From: a virus
Length of the DNA stretch: 46,672 nucleotides
Virus record (IMG/VR): IMGVR_UViG_3300025849_003570
Location: 1-46,672 of that record
Direction: 5' to 3' (one strand)
Below are positions 2,773 through 31,881 of this stretch, in pieces (the first letter of the stretch is position 1; each line of letters opens with the position of its first letter). The notes below the pieces were generated by a model. That model was not told the DNA's origin, did no database searches, and saw only the letters and a program-made list of their open reading frames with translations. A program made the position numbers and the translations under genes.

Positions 2773-4194
2773 ATGCATTTATTAGGAATTGTAGTCCCCT
2801 ACAGGGATCGGTATGAGCAGCTAGTAAAGTTTAAATCAAAAATTACAAAGTATTTAGAAAAAACCGACATTGACTATAGGTTAATTGTTGTAGAACAGGA
2901 CAATGCTACCTCTTTTAATAGAGGTAAACTTTTAAATATAGGTTTTGAACATGCTTGTAAATTAGGGTGTGATTATGTAGTATTTCACGACGTTGATATG
3001 CACCCGGTTAGAGTTGATTACAGCTATGCTGATGTCCCTTTACACCTATCTACCGGAGTTATAAGAGAGGGTATATTAGAAAAACTTCCTTTTCCTCATT
3101 ATTTCGGTGGAGTGACTCTTTTTCCTATTGAAGATTTTAAGTTAATAAACGGTTATTCTAATAATTACTGGGGATGGGGATTTGAAGATGATGATTTACT
3201 GTACAGGTGTGTAAAAAGACATGTTCCGGTAGACATTATGAATGTTGATAACATAGGAGCTAATATAGCAACGTTAAAATTTAATGGAGCTGACTCTTCT
3301 GTTAGAATCCCTAACACTATAACATACATTAAAGATTTTACTATCCATATCTCCATTGAACCAGATGAACTAGTATTAGACCACACTAAAGACAACGATA
3401 GAATAGTAATCTTTAACGTACCGGGGTATGATTTTACGCTCTACTATAATTCATTTAACAGGTACGTACTGGAAGTATTTGATGACACTAAAGCAATAAC
3501 CACCATAACAACTCAGATACAACCAGTTTACAAAACTAATTTTTCTGTCACCTGGGATAGTATAAGCTGTATTATTGGTTTATACCAAAACGGAGTGCTA
3601 GTAGAAAAAAAACAGCTAAAAGATAAACTTATACCTTATCATAAGATAAAATATCTAACTTTAGGTTGCAGAACGATAGAAGAAGATGATTCTGAATACG
3701 AACACTACAAAGGTCTTATAGATCAATTTATGGTTTGGGATATAATGCTCCCGGAAAAAGCTATAAAATCAGTAGCAGAAAATACATATTTTGGATTTAC
3801 TCACTCCTTTGCCAACTATCAGAATGGTTCTGATCTTGTTATATACTACGATGCTAAAATGATAAAAAACTATGAGCTTGTAGACTTAACTGGAAAAAAT
3901 AATCCTGCAAAAATATACAACTGTGAGATTATAGGCCATAATCATCAAGATAGTAAGCAAATTCGAATACCTTTTAGAAGAAATTCAACTTTTAGTACTG
4001 TAGATACAAAAGTAGACAACTACCTTGACGGAAGATGGCGCCACCAGACCACTAGATTTAATCAATTAAAATATGTTAATGAAGTTTCAAAAGGTTTATC
4101 GGATTTAACTAAAGATGGGCTTTCTACTTTAGACTACAAACTACATAGTACAACATCGCTAGATAGAGAAACTCACATGACAGTAGCAATATGA
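2773..4194 (+). CDS. GT7-type (beta-1,4-galactosyltransferase-like) enzyme with an inserted LamG-like domain
   Basis: This 473-residue protein has the GT7 hallmarks: VVPYRDR at 7-13, FNRGKLLNIGF near 49-59, the metal motif D73-V-D75 in VVFHDVDM, and the acceptor/metal motif GWGFEDDD at 134-141. Eukaryotic B4GALT enzymes continue directly from that point to a C-terminal segment ending DGLNSLxY…ITVDI. Here the matching piece (DGLSTLDYKL…HMTVAI, about 448-473) comes only after some 240 extra residues (about 165-405). The extra block starts LKFNGADSSVRIP and resembles a LamG/concanavalin-type beta sandwich (F-x-G-x-x-S-x-x-I-P entry, then VPGYDFTLYYNS). So the lectin-like domain sits inside the GT7 fold. 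The ATG is 3 nt after the preceding stop, and the end overlaps the paralogous next gene by 4 nt. Confidence 0.8.
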   Translation: MHLLGIVVPYRDRYEQLVKFKSKITKYLEKTDIDYRLIVVEQDNATSFNRGKLLNIGFEHACKLGCDYVVFHDVDMHPVRVDYSYADVPLHLSTGVIREGILEKLPFPHYFGGVTLFPIEDFKLINGYSNNYWGWGFEDDDLLYRCVKRHVPVDIMNVDNIGANIATLKFNGADSSVRIPNTITYIKDFTIHISIEPDELVLDHTKDNDRIVIFNVPGYDFTLYYNSFNRYVLEVFDDTKAITTITTQIQPVYKTNFSVTWDSISCIIGLYQNGVLVEKKQLKDKLIPYHKIKYLTLGCRTIEEDDSEYEHYKGLIDQFMVWDIMLPEKAIKSVAENTYFGFTHSFANYQNGSDLVIYYDAKMIKNYELVDLTGKNNPAKIYNCEIIGHNHQDSKQIRIPFRRNSTFSTVDTKVDNYLDGRWRHQTTRFNQLKYVNEVSKGLSDLTKDGLSTLDYKLHSTTSLDRETHMTVAI

Positions 4195-21721: not shown

Positions 21722-22354
21722 TTAAAACACCACCCATTTACCTGTACCGTAATGTGGCCATTTCTTTTTGTAATCATACCAAATAACATCACTTGGTATT
21801 TCTCTTTTTTTATCATTCCAAGTCTTCTCGGTAGGGGTATTAGTTGAAACACCATTGTCCTCCACAATAAAGACTATAGGGAGATTGTAGTTAGTAGCAT
21901 ATTTGTGCATTTCATAGAAACCTCCGGTTTCAAAAGCCATATCTCCTATAAAGCAGAATACCTTATCATCCTTACCGTCTATCTTATTAGCCATCGCTAT
22001 ACCGGTTGCTATTGGTATAATTGCACCAACTATTGCTGATGCATAGAATTTATACTCTTCACTAACGATAGTAATAGAACGGCCAGCCAGAATTTCACCC
22101 GCCAACCACTTTGAAGGTACACCTTTCAACAGAGCATGATAATGAGAACGCCATGTTGAGAACACCCAATCGGTAGGTTTAATTCTTTTACAAATTTCAA
22201 TTAACTCATCTTCATTCCCACCACTCAAGTGAACAGGTCCTTTTATTTTACCTAATTCCCAATCTACTACTATATCTTTTTCAAACTGCTCTAAACCTTC
22301 TTTGTCGTAGAGGGTCTCTTTTACTATCGGGTATTGTTCTAAATTTTTTATCAT
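21722..22354 (-). CDS. Thiamine-diphosphate E1 alpha-like subunit (short form)
   Basis: From ATG 22354 this is a 210-residue protein; this start gives a 4-nt ATGA overlap with the upstream rmlC-like gene. An in-frame codon at 22393 would add 13 residues inside that gene and is less likely. The TDP-binding motif is G137-D-M-A…N167 (IGDMAFETGGFYEMHKYA…FIVEDN). WRSHYHALLKG and GAIIPIATGIAMANK are typical of E1 alpha subunits. Length is about two thirds of a standard E1 alpha, ending PHYGTGKWVVF, so it is a compact form. Its likely partner is the beta-like protein at 15622. Substrate and product are unknown. Confidence 0.75.
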   Translation of the reverse strand: MIKNLEQYPIVKETLYDKEGLEQFEKDIVVDWELGKIKGPVHLSGGNEDELIEICKRIKPTDWVFSTWRSHYHALLKGVPSKWLAGEILAGRSITIVSEEYKFYASAIVGAIIPIATGIAMANKIDGKDDKVFCFIGDMAFETGGFYEMHKYATNYNLPIVFIVEDNGVSTNTPTEKTWNDKKREIPSDVIWYDYKKKWPHYGTGKWVVF

Positions 22355-22896
22355 CGGTCTCTTTTTTGTAATACAGGAGATAAAGTAGGCCATTCCATCT
22401 GATAATCAGGATCATTCCATTTCACCACCCCTTGTTCATTAGCATCGACATAGCCGTCTTTATAAAATAAATTGTAATGGAACATACAATCAGTTAAGGC
22501 ATAATGCCCGTTAGCAAACCCTGGTGGAATTAACACCTGGTTTCTATCTTTTTCAGTTATCATAAATGATTCCCAAACACCAAAAGTAGCAGATTCTTTT
22601 CTTACATCTAATACAATTAAGTATATATCACCTACGGCTGCTTGAACTAATTTCCAAGTCTTATTATCATAATGTAGCCCTCTCAGTACACCTTTGTATG
22701 ATTTAGAAAATCTACCGTGAATACTAATTTCATTTTTTTCGTAATGGATATGCTTCATTACTGGATGCTCTTCACTATGAAATGTAGTAAATATTTCACC
22801 TCTATATTCCCTATAGATTGAAGGAGTGAAGACTGGTACCTGATACCCAAATTTCTTTGATGGAGTTTCTATGAACTCATCCCATTTATTGCTCAT
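22351..22896 (-). CDS. rfbC: dTDP-4-dehydrorhamnose 3,5-epimerase-like (RmlC) protein
   Basis: This 181-residue protein has the RmlC cupin motifs. VLRGLHYDN carries the catalytic-base His75, and IPPGFANGHYAL (123-134) is the metal-free cupin core signature. A later FYKDGYV supplies the usual active-site Tyr region. Family length (~180) is normal. RmlC-type enzymes epimerise C3 and/or C5 of dTDP-4-keto-6-deoxy sugars, so a deoxy-sugar nucleotide is a likely intermediate in the leftward pathway. No rmlA/B/D set is recognisable here, so the keto-sugar may come from the host. It overlaps the oxygenase-like gene upstream and the E1 alpha-like gene downstream by 4 nt each. Confidence 0.85.
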   Translation of the reverse strand: MSNKWDEFIETPSKKFGYQVPVFTPSIYREYRGEIFTTFHSEEHPVMKHIHYEKNEISIHGRFSKSYKGVLRGLHYDNKTWKLVQAAVGDIYLIVLDVRKESATFGVWESFMITEKDRNQVLIPPGFANGHYALTDCMFHYNLFYKDGYVDANEQGVVKWNDPDYQMEWPTLSPVLQKRDR

Positions 22897-26268: not shown

Positions 26269-28008
26269 ATGGCAGAAACAATAATCTCCCCAGGTGTATT
26301 CCAAAGAGAAAACGACATTTCCTTTATACAACCAGCACCTATTGAGGCAGGAGCAGTAATACTTGGACCAACCGTTAAAGGACCAGTAGAAATTCCCACA
26401 GTAGTAACTTCTTACGGAAACTTCACAAATATCTTCGGAGTAACTTTTGAATCAGGTTCTAACTCTCATGAATTTCTTACCTCACTAGCAGTTAAAAATT
26501 ACTTCCAACAAGGAGGAAATACTTGTTTGGTAACTAGAGTAGTAAATGGATCATTTTCAGCAGCTACCTCTACATTTATATCAGCTTCACAGTCTGAATT
26601 TGCTTCTACTGCTTCCTTTAGTCTAGAAACATTAGGAAAAGGGGCTATCTTTAATAACTCTCAAGGAGTTGCCGATACCGGAGTAGAAAACACTGGCGGA
26701 TCTTTAATAAGCGGATCAGCAGATAATATAAGATGGCAAATCAGCAATGTAAGTGCCGCTAAAGGAACATTTGCTCTTTCGATTCGTAAAGGAGACGATA
26801 GTACAAAAGAAAAAACTATTTTAGAGACATTTAATAATCTATCTCTAGACCCTAATTCTCCTAACTATATTGAAAAAGTAATAGGAAATCAAGCACCTGC
26901 TATATCTGGAGATGCTAGTCAAGTTATTGCTACAGGAGATTATGTTAATCGATCTAACTACATTAGAGTAGCATCAGTTAACCTACCAACCCTAAACTAT
27001 CTAGGAACTGATGGCGTAACGGTACTTAGTGGATCTGATGCAAAATCTTTTACACATAGACTTCCTTTAGCATCTTCTGGATCTTTTTTCGGAGCAACAG
27101 GTACAGTAGCTAACGGAGCTAAATTGTTTAAAGACATCAGCACAACAACACAAGGTTTAGCTGCAACTGATTACGATGATGTAATTACACTACTAGGAAA
27201 TAAAGATGATTACCAGTTTAATATTATCTCAGCACCAGGTTTAGTTTACAGCTTACATTCAACTCAGATTGATAATATTATTTCTCTTGCAGAGTCAAGA
27301 GGAGATTGTATCGCAGTAGTAGATCTTCAATCTTACGGTGCTACAGTATCTAACGTAGTAGCTCAAGCTGACGTGTTAAATTCTTCTTATACATCTACAT
27401 ACTGGCCTTGGTTACAAATGCAATCAGCTACAGGTAAAAATGTCTGGGCACCAGCTTCAACAGTAATACCGGGCGTTTATGCTTTCACTGACGGTGCTTC
27501 TGCACCATGGTTCGCACCAGCCGGACTTGTTAGAGGAGGGTTGACAGGCGTTATTCAAGCTGAAAAGAAACTTTCTAAAACTGATAGAGATAATCTATAT
27601 AACGGAAAAGTTAATCCAATTGCTACATTCCCTGGAACAGGTATCGCAGTATTTGGTCAGAAAACACTTCAAACTAAAGCTTCTGCTTTAGATAGAGTAA
27701 ATGTAAGAAGATTGTTGATTGAACTTAAAAAATTCATTGGTAATCAAGCTAATAATCTAGTATTCGAACAGAATACAATAACTACAAGAAATAGATTCTT
27801 ATCTACTGTTAACCCATTTCTAGAATCAGTAACACAGAGAAACGGACTTTACGCATACAGAATTGTAATGGATGATTCAAATAATACTGCTGATGTAGTT
27901 GATAGAAATCAATTAGTTGGTCAGATATATATACAACCAGCCAAAACAGCAGAATTTATCGTTCTTGATTTTGTAGTAGAACCAACAGGAGCTTCTTTCG
28001 GAGTATAA
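26269..28008 (+). CDS. gp18: Contractile tail sheath protein (T4 gp18-like)
   Basis: This 579-residue protein forms the contractile sheath around the tail tube. The N-terminus (SPGVFQRENDISFIQPAPIEAGAVILGPTVKGPVEIPTVV) is the classic sheath start. The variable middle is followed by the conserved C-terminal sheath domain (about 477-579): NVRRLLIELKKFIGNQANNLVFEQN, then DRNQLVGQIYIQPAKTAEFIVLDF. Length is close to other T4-like sheaths (~650). Gene order sheath-tube-chaperone-tape measure is standard for myoviruses. The protein acts in the virion. Confidence 0.93.
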   Translation: MAETIISPGVFQRENDISFIQPAPIEAGAVILGPTVKGPVEIPTVVTSYGNFTNIFGVTFESGSNSHEFLTSLAVKNYFQQGGNTCLVTRVVNGSFSAATSTFISASQSEFASTASFSLETLGKGAIFNNSQGVADTGVENTGGSLISGSADNIRWQISNVSAAKGTFALSIRKGDDSTKEKTILETFNNLSLDPNSPNYIEKVIGNQAPAISGDASQVIATGDYVNRSNYIRVASVNLPTLNYLGTDGVTVLSGSDAKSFTHRLPLASSGSFFGATGTVANGAKLFKDISTTTQGLAATDYDDVITLLGNKDDYQFNIISAPGLVYSLHSTQIDNIISLAESRGDCIAVVDLQSYGATVSNVVAQADVLNSSYTSTYWPWLQMQSATGKNVWAPASTVIPGVYAFTDGASAPWFAPAGLVRGGLTGVIQAEKKLSKTDRDNLYNGKVNPIATFPGTGIAVFGQKTLQTKASALDRVNVRRLLIELKKFIGNQANNLVFEQNTITTRNRFLSTVNPFLESVTQRNGLYAYRIVMDDSNNTADVVDRNQLVGQIYIQPAKTAEFIVLDFVVEPTGASFGV

Positions 28009-28046: not shown

Positions 28047-28544
28047 ATGGCTATATTAGATTCATCAGCAATAATGTTCAAAGCATTTGAACCCAAAGTA
28101 CAAAACAGGTTCCTTATGTATATGGATACGGACGGTATTGAAATACCTTCTTATATGGTAAAAAACGTTAAAGCTCCATCCTTTACAGATTCCGTTGTTA
28201 AACTTGATCATATTAACTCTTACAGAAAGATTAGAGGGAAAAGAGAATGGCAAGATATGACCATGACATTATATGATCCGATTACCCCTTCTGGAGCACA
28301 AGCAGTAATGGAATGGGCTCGTCTTTCCTACGAATCGGTAACAGGTAGAGCAGGATATTCAGACTTTTATAAAAAACGCTTAAGACTAGAGATTCTAGGT
28401 CCTGTAGGGGATGTTGTAGGAGAATGGGAAATACACGGAGCATTTGTCACTAATGCAGATTTTGGTCAGTTTGACTGGTCCTCTGACGCGGTAGTAGATT
28501 TAGGCATTACAATATCGATGGATTATTGCGTACTCAATTACTAA
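28047..28544 (+). CDS. gp19: Tail tube protein (T4 gp19-like)
   Basis: This 165-residue protein forms the inner tube rings. The sequence has the typical tube pattern: FEPKVQNRFLMYMD near the start, IPSYMVKNVKAPSF, the LDHINSYRKIRGKREWQDMTMTLYDP strand pair, and a C-terminal WEIHGAFVTNADFGQFDWSSDAVVDLGITISMDY. Length fits gp19 (163 residues in T4). It follows the sheath gene by 38 nt, the usual order. An intrinsic terminator lies just after it. Confidence 0.93.
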   Translation: MAILDSSAIMFKAFEPKVQNRFLMYMDTDGIEIPSYMVKNVKAPSFTDSVVKLDHINSYRKIRGKREWQDMTMTLYDPITPSGAQAVMEWARLSYESVTGRAGYSDFYKKRLRLEILGPVGDVVGEWEIHGAFVTNADFGQFDWSSDAVVDLGITISMDYCVLNY

Positions 28545-28572
28545 TAGACATTTTAATTTAGTACTTTTAAAG

Positions 28573-28596
28573 ACCCGGATTATTTCCGGGTTTTTT
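28573..28596 (+). terminator. Rho-independent terminator after the tail tube gene
   Basis: A 7-bp perfect stem (ACCCGGA / TCCGGGT, 28573-28579 and 28585-28591) with a 5-nt loop is followed by six T residues (28591-28596). The GC-rich stem stands out in this AT-rich DNA. It would end the sheath/tube transcript. Confidence 0.88.
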
Positions 28597-28658: not shown

Positions 28659-29396
28659 ATGGATTCTAAATTTCAAATGCCTACCGAAACGGTAGATTTA
28701 CCCACAAAAGGTTTACTTTACCCTGAAGATTCCCCATTAGCAGCCGGTACTATAGAAATGAAGTACATGACAGCTAAAGAAGAGGACATACTTACTAACA
28801 CAAATTACATAAAGAACGGTACGGTTATAGATAAACTACTGAAAGCACTTATTGTTACCGAAAATGTAGATTATAATGCGCTTCTCACAGGAGATAAAAA
28901 TGCAATCATGATAGCCGCTCGTATATTAGCATACGGAAAAAATTATGAAGTAGACTACAATGGAGAAACTCACACGGTAGATTTAACTCAACTTAAAGAA
29001 AAAGAAGTAGACTATTCTCTGTTTCAAAATCGTACTAATTCGTTTGAATTTAAATTACCTAACTCAGATAATAAAATAACTTTTAAGTTACTTTCTCATG
29101 AGGATGAGAGAAAAATAGAAGAGGAACAGAAAGGATTAAAGAAAATAAATAAAGACAGTAGTACAGAAGTAACTACCAGGCTGAAGTATATGATTACCGG
29201 TATTAACGGTGTAACAGAAAAAAAAGATATTCGAAATTTTGTAGATAATTACCTACTATCTAAAGATGCTAGAGAATTGAGAAAATTTTATACATCAATA
29301 TCCCCGGACATAGAGTTAAAATTTAGTACCACCGACGGCGAGGAGGACGTTGACCTGCCTATCGGGCTAACATTTTTTTGGCCAGATTCCAATTGA
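28659..29396 (+). CDS. T4 gp26-like / tail assembly chaperone-type protein
   Basis: This 245-residue protein contains VDLPTKGLLYPEDSPLAAGTIEMKYMTAKEEDILT, then DKLLKALIV and GDKNAIMIAARILAYG. These motifs match the T4-like phage protein usually annotated as gp26 (baseplate hub/assembly). Its position between the tube and tape-measure genes is that of the lambda-type chaperone G. It ends GLTFFWPDSN. The TTT-TTT-T run coding FF lies exactly where a second frame opens, so a fraction of ribosomes could make a longer fused product (see 29371-29625). The short form is cytoplasmic and probably not in the virion. Confidence 0.75.
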   Translation: MDSKFQMPTETVDLPTKGLLYPEDSPLAAGTIEMKYMTAKEEDILTNTNYIKNGTVIDKLLKALIVTENVDYNALLTGDKNAIMIAARILAYGKNYEVDYNGETHTVDLTQLKEKEVDYSLFQNRTNSFEFKLPNSDNKITFKLLSHEDERKIEEEQKGLKKINKDSSTEVTTRLKYMITGINGVTEKKDIRNFVDNYLLSKDARELRKFYTSISPDIELKFSTTDGEEDVDLPIGLTFFWPDSN

Positions 29397-29625
29397 TAGA
29401 GTAGGGGTATTCACACAAGTACATGAAATAGTTTTTCACGGCAACGGAGGATACAGTTGGGAAACAGTATACAATATGCCTATTTGGTTAAGAAGGTTTA
29501 CATACGCCCTTTTAAAGAAACATTACGAAAAAGAATCCGAAGAAGTAGTTCCACTACCATCTTCGAAAAATAAAATTCATAGACCAGGCATACAACCTTC
29601 ATATAGTACTAAGGCTTCTAAATAA
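29371..29625 (+). CDS. Start-less downstream frame, probable frameshift extension of the tail chaperone (G-T type)
   Basis: This frame opens right after a stop at 29368-29370 and runs to TAA 29623-29625. It encodes IDRVGVFTQVHEIVFHGNGG, then YSWETVYNMPIWLRRFTYAL and a Lys/Pro-rich tail. The H-G-N-G-G-Y-S-W-E-T-V-Y-N-M-P-I-W-L-R-R pattern is strongly protein-like and similar to C-terminal parts of tail assembly chaperones. There is no ATG, GTG or TTG before residue ~36 (ATG 29476), which lies inside the conserved part, and no ribosome-binding site. The frame is +1 (or -2) relative to the upstream gene. It would be joined to it at the T run 29373-29379, just ahead of the tape-measure gene. Confidence 0.65.
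   Translation, partial: HFFGQIPIDRVGVFTQVHEIVFHGNGGYSWETVYNMPIWLRRFTYALLKKHYEKESEEVVPLPSSKNKIHRPGIQPSYSTKASK
29373..29379 (+). other. Candidate slippery site (T7 run) for programmed frameshifting
   Basis: Seven T residues cover two Phe codons and the first base of TGG near the end of the chaperone-type gene. A +1 or -2 slip here moves ribosomes into the 29371-29625 frame, which opens only at this point. A polymerase slip or read error of one T would have the same effect. Confidence 0.55.
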
Positions 29626-29637
29626 CAGAAGCCTTTA

Positions 29638-29661: not shown

Positions 29662-31881
29662 ATGGCTACTAAAAAAGAAATAGAAGAGAGTAATAAACTT
29701 TTAAGAGAACAGAATGAACTCTTAAAAAAAAACCGTCTCATCACAGAGGAGAGTCTAGACGATACCCGTGAGTTAGCAAATATACTACGAGATCAAACTA
29801 AAGAGATAGAATTTCAAGTATCTGAAAAAAACCAACTAAGATCTATCGGTAATAGTTTAAATAAACTTGCACAAGATTCATTTAATATTACAAACGATGA
29901 ATTAGCAGATCTCGGAACATCCAAAAAACTATTAGAATTTCAGAAAAAACTTAAAAAAGATGTCCTTGGTTTAGAATCCCTGAGAGGTAAGTTAATAGCA
30001 GCCGAACCGAAATTACAGGTAGAAATTAATAGAAATATTAAGGCTCAAATCGCATCTGCTGAAGACCTTGAAGCACAGTTAACAAAACAAGTAGAATTAA
30101 CACAAAAGATTAATAAAAATTCTAGTGTTAAAGCATTCCCCGGTTTAGAAGATCTTGTTAAAGCCATACCGGGTCTTAGAAAATTCTCAGAACCTTTTCA
30201 AGAAGCATCAAAAGCAGCAAGAAATGCAGCGTTAAGCAATTTAAAATCTATAAAACAGGTGAGCGTATTAGGCGCCGGATTTAGAGCATTAGGACCTGCC
30301 TTGATGAAATCACTTGGCCCGATAGGGTTACTAGGATTGGCAATAAATTTTATTGTAGATCTATTGATCGCTGCTGATGAAAATACAACTAATATTGCCA
30401 AGAACTTAGGAATATCAAAATCAGCAGCAGAAGAATTACGTTTGGAGTTTGTTGAAATCGCAAGAGAGAATAACAACCTTCTGGTAACTTCAACATCTCT
30501 AATAGCAGCCCAAGGTGAATTAACTCAAGCTTTAGGTGCAACAACTAGAGAATCTAAAAACTTATCCGAAAATCAAGTTTTTCTTACTAAAAATTTAGGA
30601 ATAGCAGGAGATAAAGCAGCTTTTATGCAGCTAATGTTTGCAGCCACAAATCAAAACGTGGATTCTGTAATAGACAGTACTCTTAATTTCGCAAGGGCAC
30701 AAGGAATAGCAAACGGGTACTTAATAACAGGAGAAAGCATACTAGCAGAAATAGCCACCACATCAGCTGAAATCTCAGGCTATTACGGATTTAATAATAT
30801 AGCATTAGCAAAAGCAGTTTATACCGCAAGACAGTTTGGATTAACTTTAATGCAAACCCAAAGCATTAGTAAAGGACTTCTTGATTTTGAATCTTCAATT
30901 TCTAACGAATTAGAAGCAGAATTAATATCCGGTAAGGCACTAAACTTTGAAAAAGCTAGAATGCTAGCACTCCAAGGAGATTCTGCAGGAGCTGCAGCCG
31001 AAGTTTTAAAACAAGCCCAAGCTCTTACAACCGAGCAAAGAAAAAACCCAATACTTATGGGAGCGATGGCAAAAGCTGCCGGACTTTCAGTAGAAGAGCT
31101 AAACAAAGCGTTTCTCATCGAGAAGAATTTAAAGATGTCTCGTGAGGATTATAATGAACTTTTAGCTAAAGGAGCAGAAACCGGAGATAAAGAGCAAGTA
31201 TCAAGCTTAGCATATTTAGGTAGAACAAAAGAGGAGATTGAAAAGACTTTAACTGCCCAACAAAAGTTTGCTGCTTCTTTAGAGAAAGCTAAAGATCAAT
31301 TTACAGGATTAGTAGGCTCCGGTTTATTAGATGATCTTGCAGATTCAATCGCCTCTTTGGTAAAGTTTATTGGATTCTTTACTGGCAATGCATTATCAGA
31401 CGTCGAGAAAGAAAAAAGATCTAAATTAACTGCTGGTAAAGATGGAATGTCCATGTCTGAAGCAACTAAGTTAATTAGATCTACTCGAGGTGCAGGAAAG
31501 ATGGATTATATAAAAGATGCTGTGATGCCTTTTTTTTCCGGATCTATTTCCAGCTTCATTAAAGGCACTAATTTTGCAGCTTCATCGGATGAAACCGCTA
31601 AAATTACATCTAAAGTACTTGAAAAAAAGCTTGCAGAAGCAGCTAAAAGAGATAAGATAGCCACTGCTATGGCTGATACCCCGCTAGCTACCGGAGGAAT
31701 AGTTACTAAGCCCACCAGAGCATTGGTTGGAGAAGCAGGTGCAGAAGCAGTCATACCTCTAACAGCACTCTATGCTAAATTTGACGAATTAATTGCTGCA
31801 GTAAATAAAGGAGGATCCGTATATATAGATGGTAATAAAGCAGGAGAAGCATTAATGCTCGGTTCATATAAACTAAGTTAA
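29662..31881 (+). CDS. Tail tape measure protein
   Basis: This 739-residue protein sets tail length. It starts with a long charged helical region (IEESNKLLREQNELLKKN…). It has a hydrophobic segment near 209-237 (ALMKSLGPIGLLGLAINFIVDLLIAA) that could cross the host membrane. More helix follows, and the end is the tell-tale ATGGIVTKPTRALVGEAGAEAVIPL seen at the C-terminus of many tape measure proteins. Position directly after the chaperone frame pair is classic. In T4 the equivalent role is filled by gp29 (590 residues); this one is longer. The Ala/Gly/Ser bias differs from the Lys/Ile-rich glycan cassette. Confidence 0.88.
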   Translation: MATKKEIEESNKLLREQNELLKKNRLITEESLDDTRELANILRDQTKEIEFQVSEKNQLRSIGNSLNKLAQDSFNITNDELADLGTSKKLLEFQKKLKKDVLGLESLRGKLIAAEPKLQVEINRNIKAQIASAEDLEAQLTKQVELTQKINKNSSVKAFPGLEDLVKAIPGLRKFSEPFQEASKAARNAALSNLKSIKQVSVLGAGFRALGPALMKSLGPIGLLGLAINFIVDLLIAADENTTNIAKNLGISKSAAEELRLEFVEIARENNNLLVTSTSLIAAQGELTQALGATTRESKNLSENQVFLTKNLGIAGDKAAFMQLMFAATNQNVDSVIDSTLNFARAQGIANGYLITGESILAEIATTSAEISGYYGFNNIALAKAVYTARQFGLTLMQTQSISKGLLDFESSISNELEAELISGKALNFEKARMLALQGDSAGAAAEVLKQAQALTTEQRKNPILMGAMAKAAGLSVEELNKAFLIEKNLKMSREDYNELLAKGAETGDKEQVSSLAYLGRTKEEIEKTLTAQQKFAASLEKAKDQFTGLVGSGLLDDLADSIASLVKFIGFFTGNALSDVEKEKRSKLTAGKDGMSMSEATKLIRSTRGAGKMDYIKDAVMPFFSGSISSFIKGTNFAASSDETAKITSKVLEKKLAEAAKRDKIATAMADTPLATGGIVTKPTRALVGEAGAEAVIPLTALYAKFDELIAAVNKGGSVYIDGNKAGEALMLGSYKLS

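Follow-up and report, generated by a model that had tools for sequence, protein, structure and literature searches.

A single locus of a T4-like phage, probably one of marine bacteria, very probably gives rise to two forms of a tail assembly chaperone (TAC), a short one of 245 amino acids (TAC-N) and a long one of 321 amino acids (TAC-NC), by programmed +1 ribosomal frameshifting, as judged from comparison of homologous sequences. The DNA that we analyzed, called the window below, is a 46,672-base virus record from IMG/VR. A programmed frameshift in a tail chaperone gene had been proposed in an earlier note on this DNA, and the proposal is borne out by the position of the gene, homology to T4 gp26 and gp51, a conserved slip site and opening point, and selection on the part that lacks a start codon. 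The features of the locus and its neighbors are as follows.

26269..28008, + strand: tail sheath protein (phrog_23 tail sheath, E 1e-72)
28047..28544, + strand: tail tube protein (gp19-like), upstream neighbor (phrog_4542 tail tube, E 2e-25; Pfam Phage_T4_gp19, E 8e-6, just under the curated cut-off)
28659..29396, + strand: short tail assembly chaperone (TAC-N or 'G' form; gp26-like), 245 aa, zero frame (open reading frame; phrog_150 match; 55% identity to the immuto protein)
29373..29381, + strand: putative slip site TTT TTT TGG, with codon 1 TTT, codon 2 TTT (proposed P-site slip codon) and codon 3 TGG (zero-frame A site) (YTT then T in 208/209 homologues; strongest synonymous constraint at or just after the site)
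29379..29379, + strand: base that would be skipped in the +1 shift, the next codon being GGC at 29380-29382 (from the frame relation and re-pairing of UUU to UUU)
29380..29625, + strand: +1-frame extension (TAC-C or 'T' domain), 81 codons plus stop, open frame from 29371 (no start before 29476; homologues at 163/163 loci; phrog_150 match to 279/282; predicted three-helix domain)
28659..29625, + strand: predicted long form (TAC-NC or 'GT'), 321 aa, via +1 shift (TGGC translated as a single Gly step)
29662..31881, + strand: probable tape measure protein, 739 aa, downstream neighbor (compared with the protein annotated as tape measure in Flavobacterium phage immuto: 28% identity over 350 aa, E 2e-22, and a common C-terminal motif)

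Two reading frames between the tube and tape measure genes

The gene order in the window is tube, TAC, tape measure. The zero frame of the chaperone gene ends ...CTA ACA TTT TTT TGG CCA GAT TCC AAT TGA, which gives the C-terminus ...GLTFFWPDSN and a stop at 29394-29396. A second frame, shifted one base downstream, has a TAA stop at 29368-29370; from 29371 it reads CAT TTT TTT GGC CAG ... and stays open for 84 codons to 29622, 83 of them from the run of seven T (T7) at 29373-29379, before TAA at 29623-29625. The relation of the two frames is +1 or -2. The window has no ATG, GTG or TTG between the opening of the second frame and the T run, and the earliest ATG in that frame is codon 36 (29476). 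Re-checking the window sequence confirmed the letters and coordinates given earlier, including a frame of 83 codons without a usable start before about residue 36.

Homopolymers are error-prone, and a mistake in sequencing or assembly, or damage to the gene, could make the true count T6 or T8 and the locus a simple fusion, as the earlier note had recognized. However, an identical junction with T7 occurs in L087-L089, three further contigs of this virus in IMG/VR, which show one mismatch over 4.1-5.3 kb, and the same frame relation occurs in more than 200 homologues, isolates included, which already refute a reading as error. We regard the chance of such an error as negligible.

Two terminator-like hairpins, where chance would give 1.1, flank the locus. 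One, at 28569-28595, separates the tube gene from the chaperone gene; the other, at 29611-29635, has the stop codon of the extension in its loop. Elsewhere in the window, on the minus strand at 21722-22393, lies a thiamine-dependent dehydrogenase E1-like gene (Pfam E1_dh, E 4e-21) adjoining epimerase-like and sugar-nucleotide genes; all of these are possibly host-type metabolic genes carried by the phage.

Relationship to T4 gp26 and gp51

The product of 28659-29396 matches phrog_150, annotated 'baseplate hub', with E 1e-14 over profile positions 9-233 of 282, and is 55% identical to the 'baseplate hub subunit' of Flavobacterium phage immuto. The same family includes T4 gp26 (7e-71) and T4 gp51 (3e-84), both of which match PF12322, with a C-terminus that is about 48 residues longer in gp51; Pfam PF12322 gave no match to the window protein directly. 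By profile comparison, the product is a distant relative of gp26 and gp51, the tail assembly chaperones of T4.

The extension falls where gp51 outreaches gp26. Along phrog_150, gp26 stops at position 235 and gp51 reaches 280, and a 57-aa 'gp51' of cyanophage P-SSM2 covers positions 239-278. When the two parts of the window locus are fused, the end of the match moves from 233 to 279 of 282 and the score rises from 55.6 to 62.7 bits. Fusions from phage Mel-JY01 and huge phage LR756508 likewise lengthen the match (to 274 and 273), and those from immuto, RM378, GXN1 and LIS04 do not lengthen it that far. Plain hhalign comparisons of alignments of either part, or of the fusion, with single T4 proteins were too weak, and PHROG profiles were used instead. 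Because the short form matches the gp26/gp51 family and the fusion carries that match further, we take the extension to correspond, most likely, to the C-terminal domain of gp51, and the locus to encode a pair of short and long TACs.

The short form and the extension were folded separately. The model of the short form has a mean pLDDT of 93.5 and no significant match to solved structures in a PDB fold search; the HK97 tail assembly chaperone 2ob9, its second match, was set aside (E 0.77, not significant). A search by sequence found no solved homologue. The extension is predicted to form three helices, with pLDDT of about 90 for residues 11-50, and its best viral matches were short uncharacterized phage proteins, none with E < 0.001.

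Conservation of the frame relation and the slip motif

Comparison of homologues shows the two-frame architecture, its conservation, the slip motif and the homology to gp26/gp51. In a first survey, the extension was in the +1 frame at all 163 loci that have both parts, among them those of the isolated phages Flavobacterium immuto and Microcystis Mel-JY01. A script placed 96 of 99 further loci in the +1 frame; the other three calls were L257, which is +1 on inspection, L186, which has its own start, and L196, which is -1 after T_TTT_TTC. One locus scripted as +1, L191, is actually another case with its own start. Inspection also gave a +1 extension for Rhodothermus phage RM378, Streptococcus phage GXN1 and Listeria phage LIS04; at only 27% identity, RM378 retains both TTT TTT TGG and the +1 extension.

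L196, whose junction lies near 3161, is a relative of the GXN1 chaperone with a -1 extension, and GXN1 itself looks +1 (TTC TTT CGT). The direction of shifting has possibly switched among these relatives.

The junction codons of 209 distinct homologues are TTT TTT TGG in 179, TTC TTT TGG in 11 and TTT CTT TGG in 10, with CTT TTT TGG and TTT TTT TAC in three each and three singletons. In 208 of the 209, codon 2 is YTT (TTT or CTT) and the next base is T; the exception, L003 (LR756508), reads AAC TTT CTA TTC CCT near 3730, which is at odds with a codon 2 slip. The zero-frame stop follows 3-6 codons past codon 2. TTC accounts for 18% of the Phe codons elsewhere in the short form, and codon 2 is TTT in all 186 cases in which it encodes Phe. 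These motif and Phe-codon counts ignore relatedness, and beside them stand counts made on the tree, along which the motif changed at least nine times and the T run was interrupted or regained about six times, with YTT-T kept throughout except in L003. Synonymous entropy drops far under expectation at the slip codons and within the short overlap alone; across the rest of both parts it is normal. The locus thus bears the hallmark of programmed frameshifting, namely two overlapping frames with their relation and slip sequence conserved, and comparison of homologues, which the earlier note had suggested as a check, finds both the slip site and the opening point of the second frame conserved.

The same variants bear on slippage of RNA polymerase, which could make the long form by losing one base, or gaining two, at T7. 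Most homologues do have T7, and runs of identical bases can slip. However, a run of seven T is short for efficient polymerase slippage, and the TTT CTT TGG and TTC TTT TGG homologues, including the isolated Flavobacterium phage, have only T3 or T4 with the frame relation unchanged. We therefore consider polymerase slippage highly improbable.

Translation of the extension

Between the zero-frame stop and the first possible start codon, 45 independent close pairs of homologues differ by 148, 96 and 403 substitutions at codon positions 1, 2 and 3, and the codon changes in these pairs comprise 296 synonymous and 194 non-synonymous ones. Judged by this pattern, the extension is under purifying selection ahead of any start codon. 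Its best-conserved part is its first residues, FFGL.

These observations weigh against reading the extension as a normal gene in its own right, with a separate start codon. Some ATG, GTG or TTG does occur in the extension frame between its opening and the slip site in 54 of 132 homologues, and the extension of Mel-JY01 is annotated as a separate gene; lack of a start codon alone excludes separate initiation in the window and most others, but not in those 54. The window and most homologues have no start ahead of codons 33-37, and yet the residues from the slip site onward are conserved and that part is under selection. As an account of the locus, separate initiation is very unlikely.

Two contigs do have an ATG directly after the stop of the first gene. 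In L186 (also L358, at 3218) and L191 (also L359, at 3215), whose short forms are 75% identical, the extension lies in another frame and begins with its own ATG, 5-8 bases beyond the stop codon's first base. The junctions of these two, TTC TTG TAT and TTC CTT TGG, have lost the standard slip sequence; close kin retain TTT CTT TGG or TTT TTT TGG, and two relatives, L360 and L361, keep TTT CTT TGG together with the +1 extension. This pair of contigs from one branch is a natural control, judged from their sequences, in which the need for a shift was lost along with the usual slip sequence. Homologues with their own start, named earlier as a finding that would count against frameshifting, thus exist, but they are confined to one small branch in which the slip motif has decayed.

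Proposed mechanism

In the mechanism that we propose, most ribosomes would end at the TGA at 29394 and release the 245-aa TAC-N, and a minority would shift +1 at TTT_TTT_TGG_C. With UGG waiting in the A site, the peptidyl-tRNA on codon 2 (UUU; CUU in relatives) would move forward by one base onto UUU, a P-site slip like that in the synthesis of release factor 2 (CUU_UGA_C). Translation of 81 further codons would then complete the 321-aa TAC-NC, a product spanning ...GLTFFGQIPIDR, and its helical C-terminal domain would be the counterpart of the gp51 C-terminus. On the model of lambda gpG/gpGT, TAC-N would coat the tape measure protein, and TAC-NC would bring in the subunits of the tail tube. 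What we infer is that ribosomes actually shift here and that they move by +1 and not by -2, together with the precise codon at which they slip, how efficiently they do so and the chaperone function of the products.

A -2 ribosomal frameshift at the T run would yield both products as well. It leads to the same frame, T7 allows -2 re-pairing, and phage Mu uses a -2 shift for the same kind of gene (PMC5009743). In the TTC TTT TGG clade, however, a -2 slip at codon 2 puts tRNA-Phe on UCU, whereas a +1 slip re-pairs fully. Similarly, in most TTT CTT TGG homologues (AAC/AGC TTT CTT) a -2 slip of codon 1 lands on ACU or GCU, although a -2 slip from CUU to UUC at codon 2 would still be possible in this group taken alone. 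With a +1 slip at codon 2, the tRNA re-pairs from UUU or CUU to UUU in every homologue but L003; slipping at codon 1 would not work in the TTC TTT TGG clade and is the sole fit for L003 (UUU to UUC). Thus, the frame relation first described as +1 or -2 is confirmed and the comparative variants favor +1; we consider a -2 shift unlikely.

Counting against the proposed mechanism, no conserved stimulatory RNA structure was found downstream of the putative +1 site, where z-scores are slightly low, but no lower than further downstream, and no consensus fold emerged; Rfam gave only sub-threshold matches, all upstream of the chaperone gene. A Shine-Dalgarno (SD)-like element at the spacing of the release factor 2 site is likewise absent, and a GGGG about 9-10 nt upstream of codon 1 occurs in a minority of homologues only. 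A GAGG about 30 nt upstream, present in roughly half of the homologues, was considered as an SD-like stimulator and rejected; it is too distant and is explained by conserved Glu codons.

Routes to a long form in T4-like phages

In other phages the gp51-like part lies in the -1 frame, after T_TTT followed by TTC, TTT or TTG. The isolates are P-SSM2, Melnitz-2, S-RIM2, S-RSM4, Rhizobium I1_9, Aeromonas P19 and Vibrio K571 (L168, L169 and L171-L175), and the -1 extension is present in 58 of 58 P-SSM2-like contigs. The P-SSM2 group has an ATG four codons past the slip, which leaves both routes open, and S-RIM2 and S-RSM4 have none near. The annotated gp51 starts of S-RIM2, S-RSM4 and Melnitz-2 look internal, with homology extending upstream to the slip site.

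Vladimirov and co-workers are said to have reported, in 2022, conserved frameshifting in several groups of T4-like phages. Frameshifting of the G-T kind is widespread, with T4 as an exception, and shifts of -1, -2 and +1 are used in different phages (PMC5009743, 2016). Among T4-like TACs, some have separate short and long genes and others poly-T -1 signals (Vladimirov et al. 2022, Virology 566:9, as cited by PMC10885494, the PRFect paper, and PMC12846349, the Adele paper). The earlier idea that this locus is the T4-like equivalent of the G/G-T pair is therefore supported, although such an equivalent, according to those citing papers, was already published in 2022 and is not new. In the PRFect paper and later papers, including those through which Vladimirov et al. 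2022 is known, we found no description of a +1 version of a T4-like TAC. The kind of system is known, and its +1 direction and site appear, as far as checked, to be a new variant.

We think it likely that the T4-like TAC locus has repeatedly changed its route to short and long forms, through +1 shifting, -1 shifting, a separate start and gene duplication, with opposite shift directions reaching one protein outcome and the +1 site resembling that of release factor 2 but with a sense codon. On this reading, an old +1 shift at TTT_YTT_TGG would probably characterize a very large uncultured group together with the Flavobacterium, Microcystis and Rhodothermus phages. The -1 shift at T_TTT_TTY would likely belong to cyanophages and their relatives, the separate start to one small branch and the duplication to T4.

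If this is true, annotation has missed or truncated the long chaperone form in hundreds of T4-like phage genomes; in the immuto record, only the last 36 codons are annotated, as a hypothetical protein. With +1 shifting, -1 shifting, a new start and duplication all leading to one product in homologous genes, selection on the ratio of short to long form would be directly testable. A conserved +1 site at which UGG, a sense codon, occupies the A site and RNA structure is not evident would also help in asking what minimum a bacterial ribosome requires for +1 shifting.

Comparison with known systems

T4 itself has a homologous short form (gp26) and a long form with a C-terminal extension (gp51), all within phrog_150, but they are encoded by two paralogous genes on opposite strands, whereas the window has a single gene with a +1-frame extension. 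The TACs of Kyanoviridae and relatives (P-SSM2 and others) share the protein family, the place of the slip at the end of the short form and the C-terminal domain; theirs, however, is a -1 slip at poly-T, in contrast to the putative +1 slip at TTT_YTT_TGG in the window.

The likeness to lambda gpG/gpGT, a short and a frameshift-extended chaperone encoded directly before the tape measure gene, is one of arrangement. Lambda uses a -1 shift at a site of the form X_XXY_YYZ, and the extension in the window is in the +1 frame. Both gpG and gpGT are absent from virions (PMC5009743). The TACs of Mu (-2) and HSTV-2 (+1) serve the same purpose through a frame other than -1 (PMC5009743); Mu differs in its -2 shift, and HSTV-2 is an archaeal virus.

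For the slip itself, a close likeness is the +1 site of release factor 2 (prfB), CUU_UGA_C, where the tRNA in the P site goes from CUU to UUU and UGA C comes next (PMC5009743). A P-site YUU followed by U, with re-pairing on UUU, is found in 208 of 209 homologues of the window locus. The prfB site differs in having a stop codon in the A site and an SD element 3 nt upstream; homologues of the window locus have the sense codon UGG in the A site (UAC or UUC in a few) and no SD at 3-nt spacing, and no autoregulation is implied. The junction of immuto, CUU_UGG_C, is one base from the prfB site.
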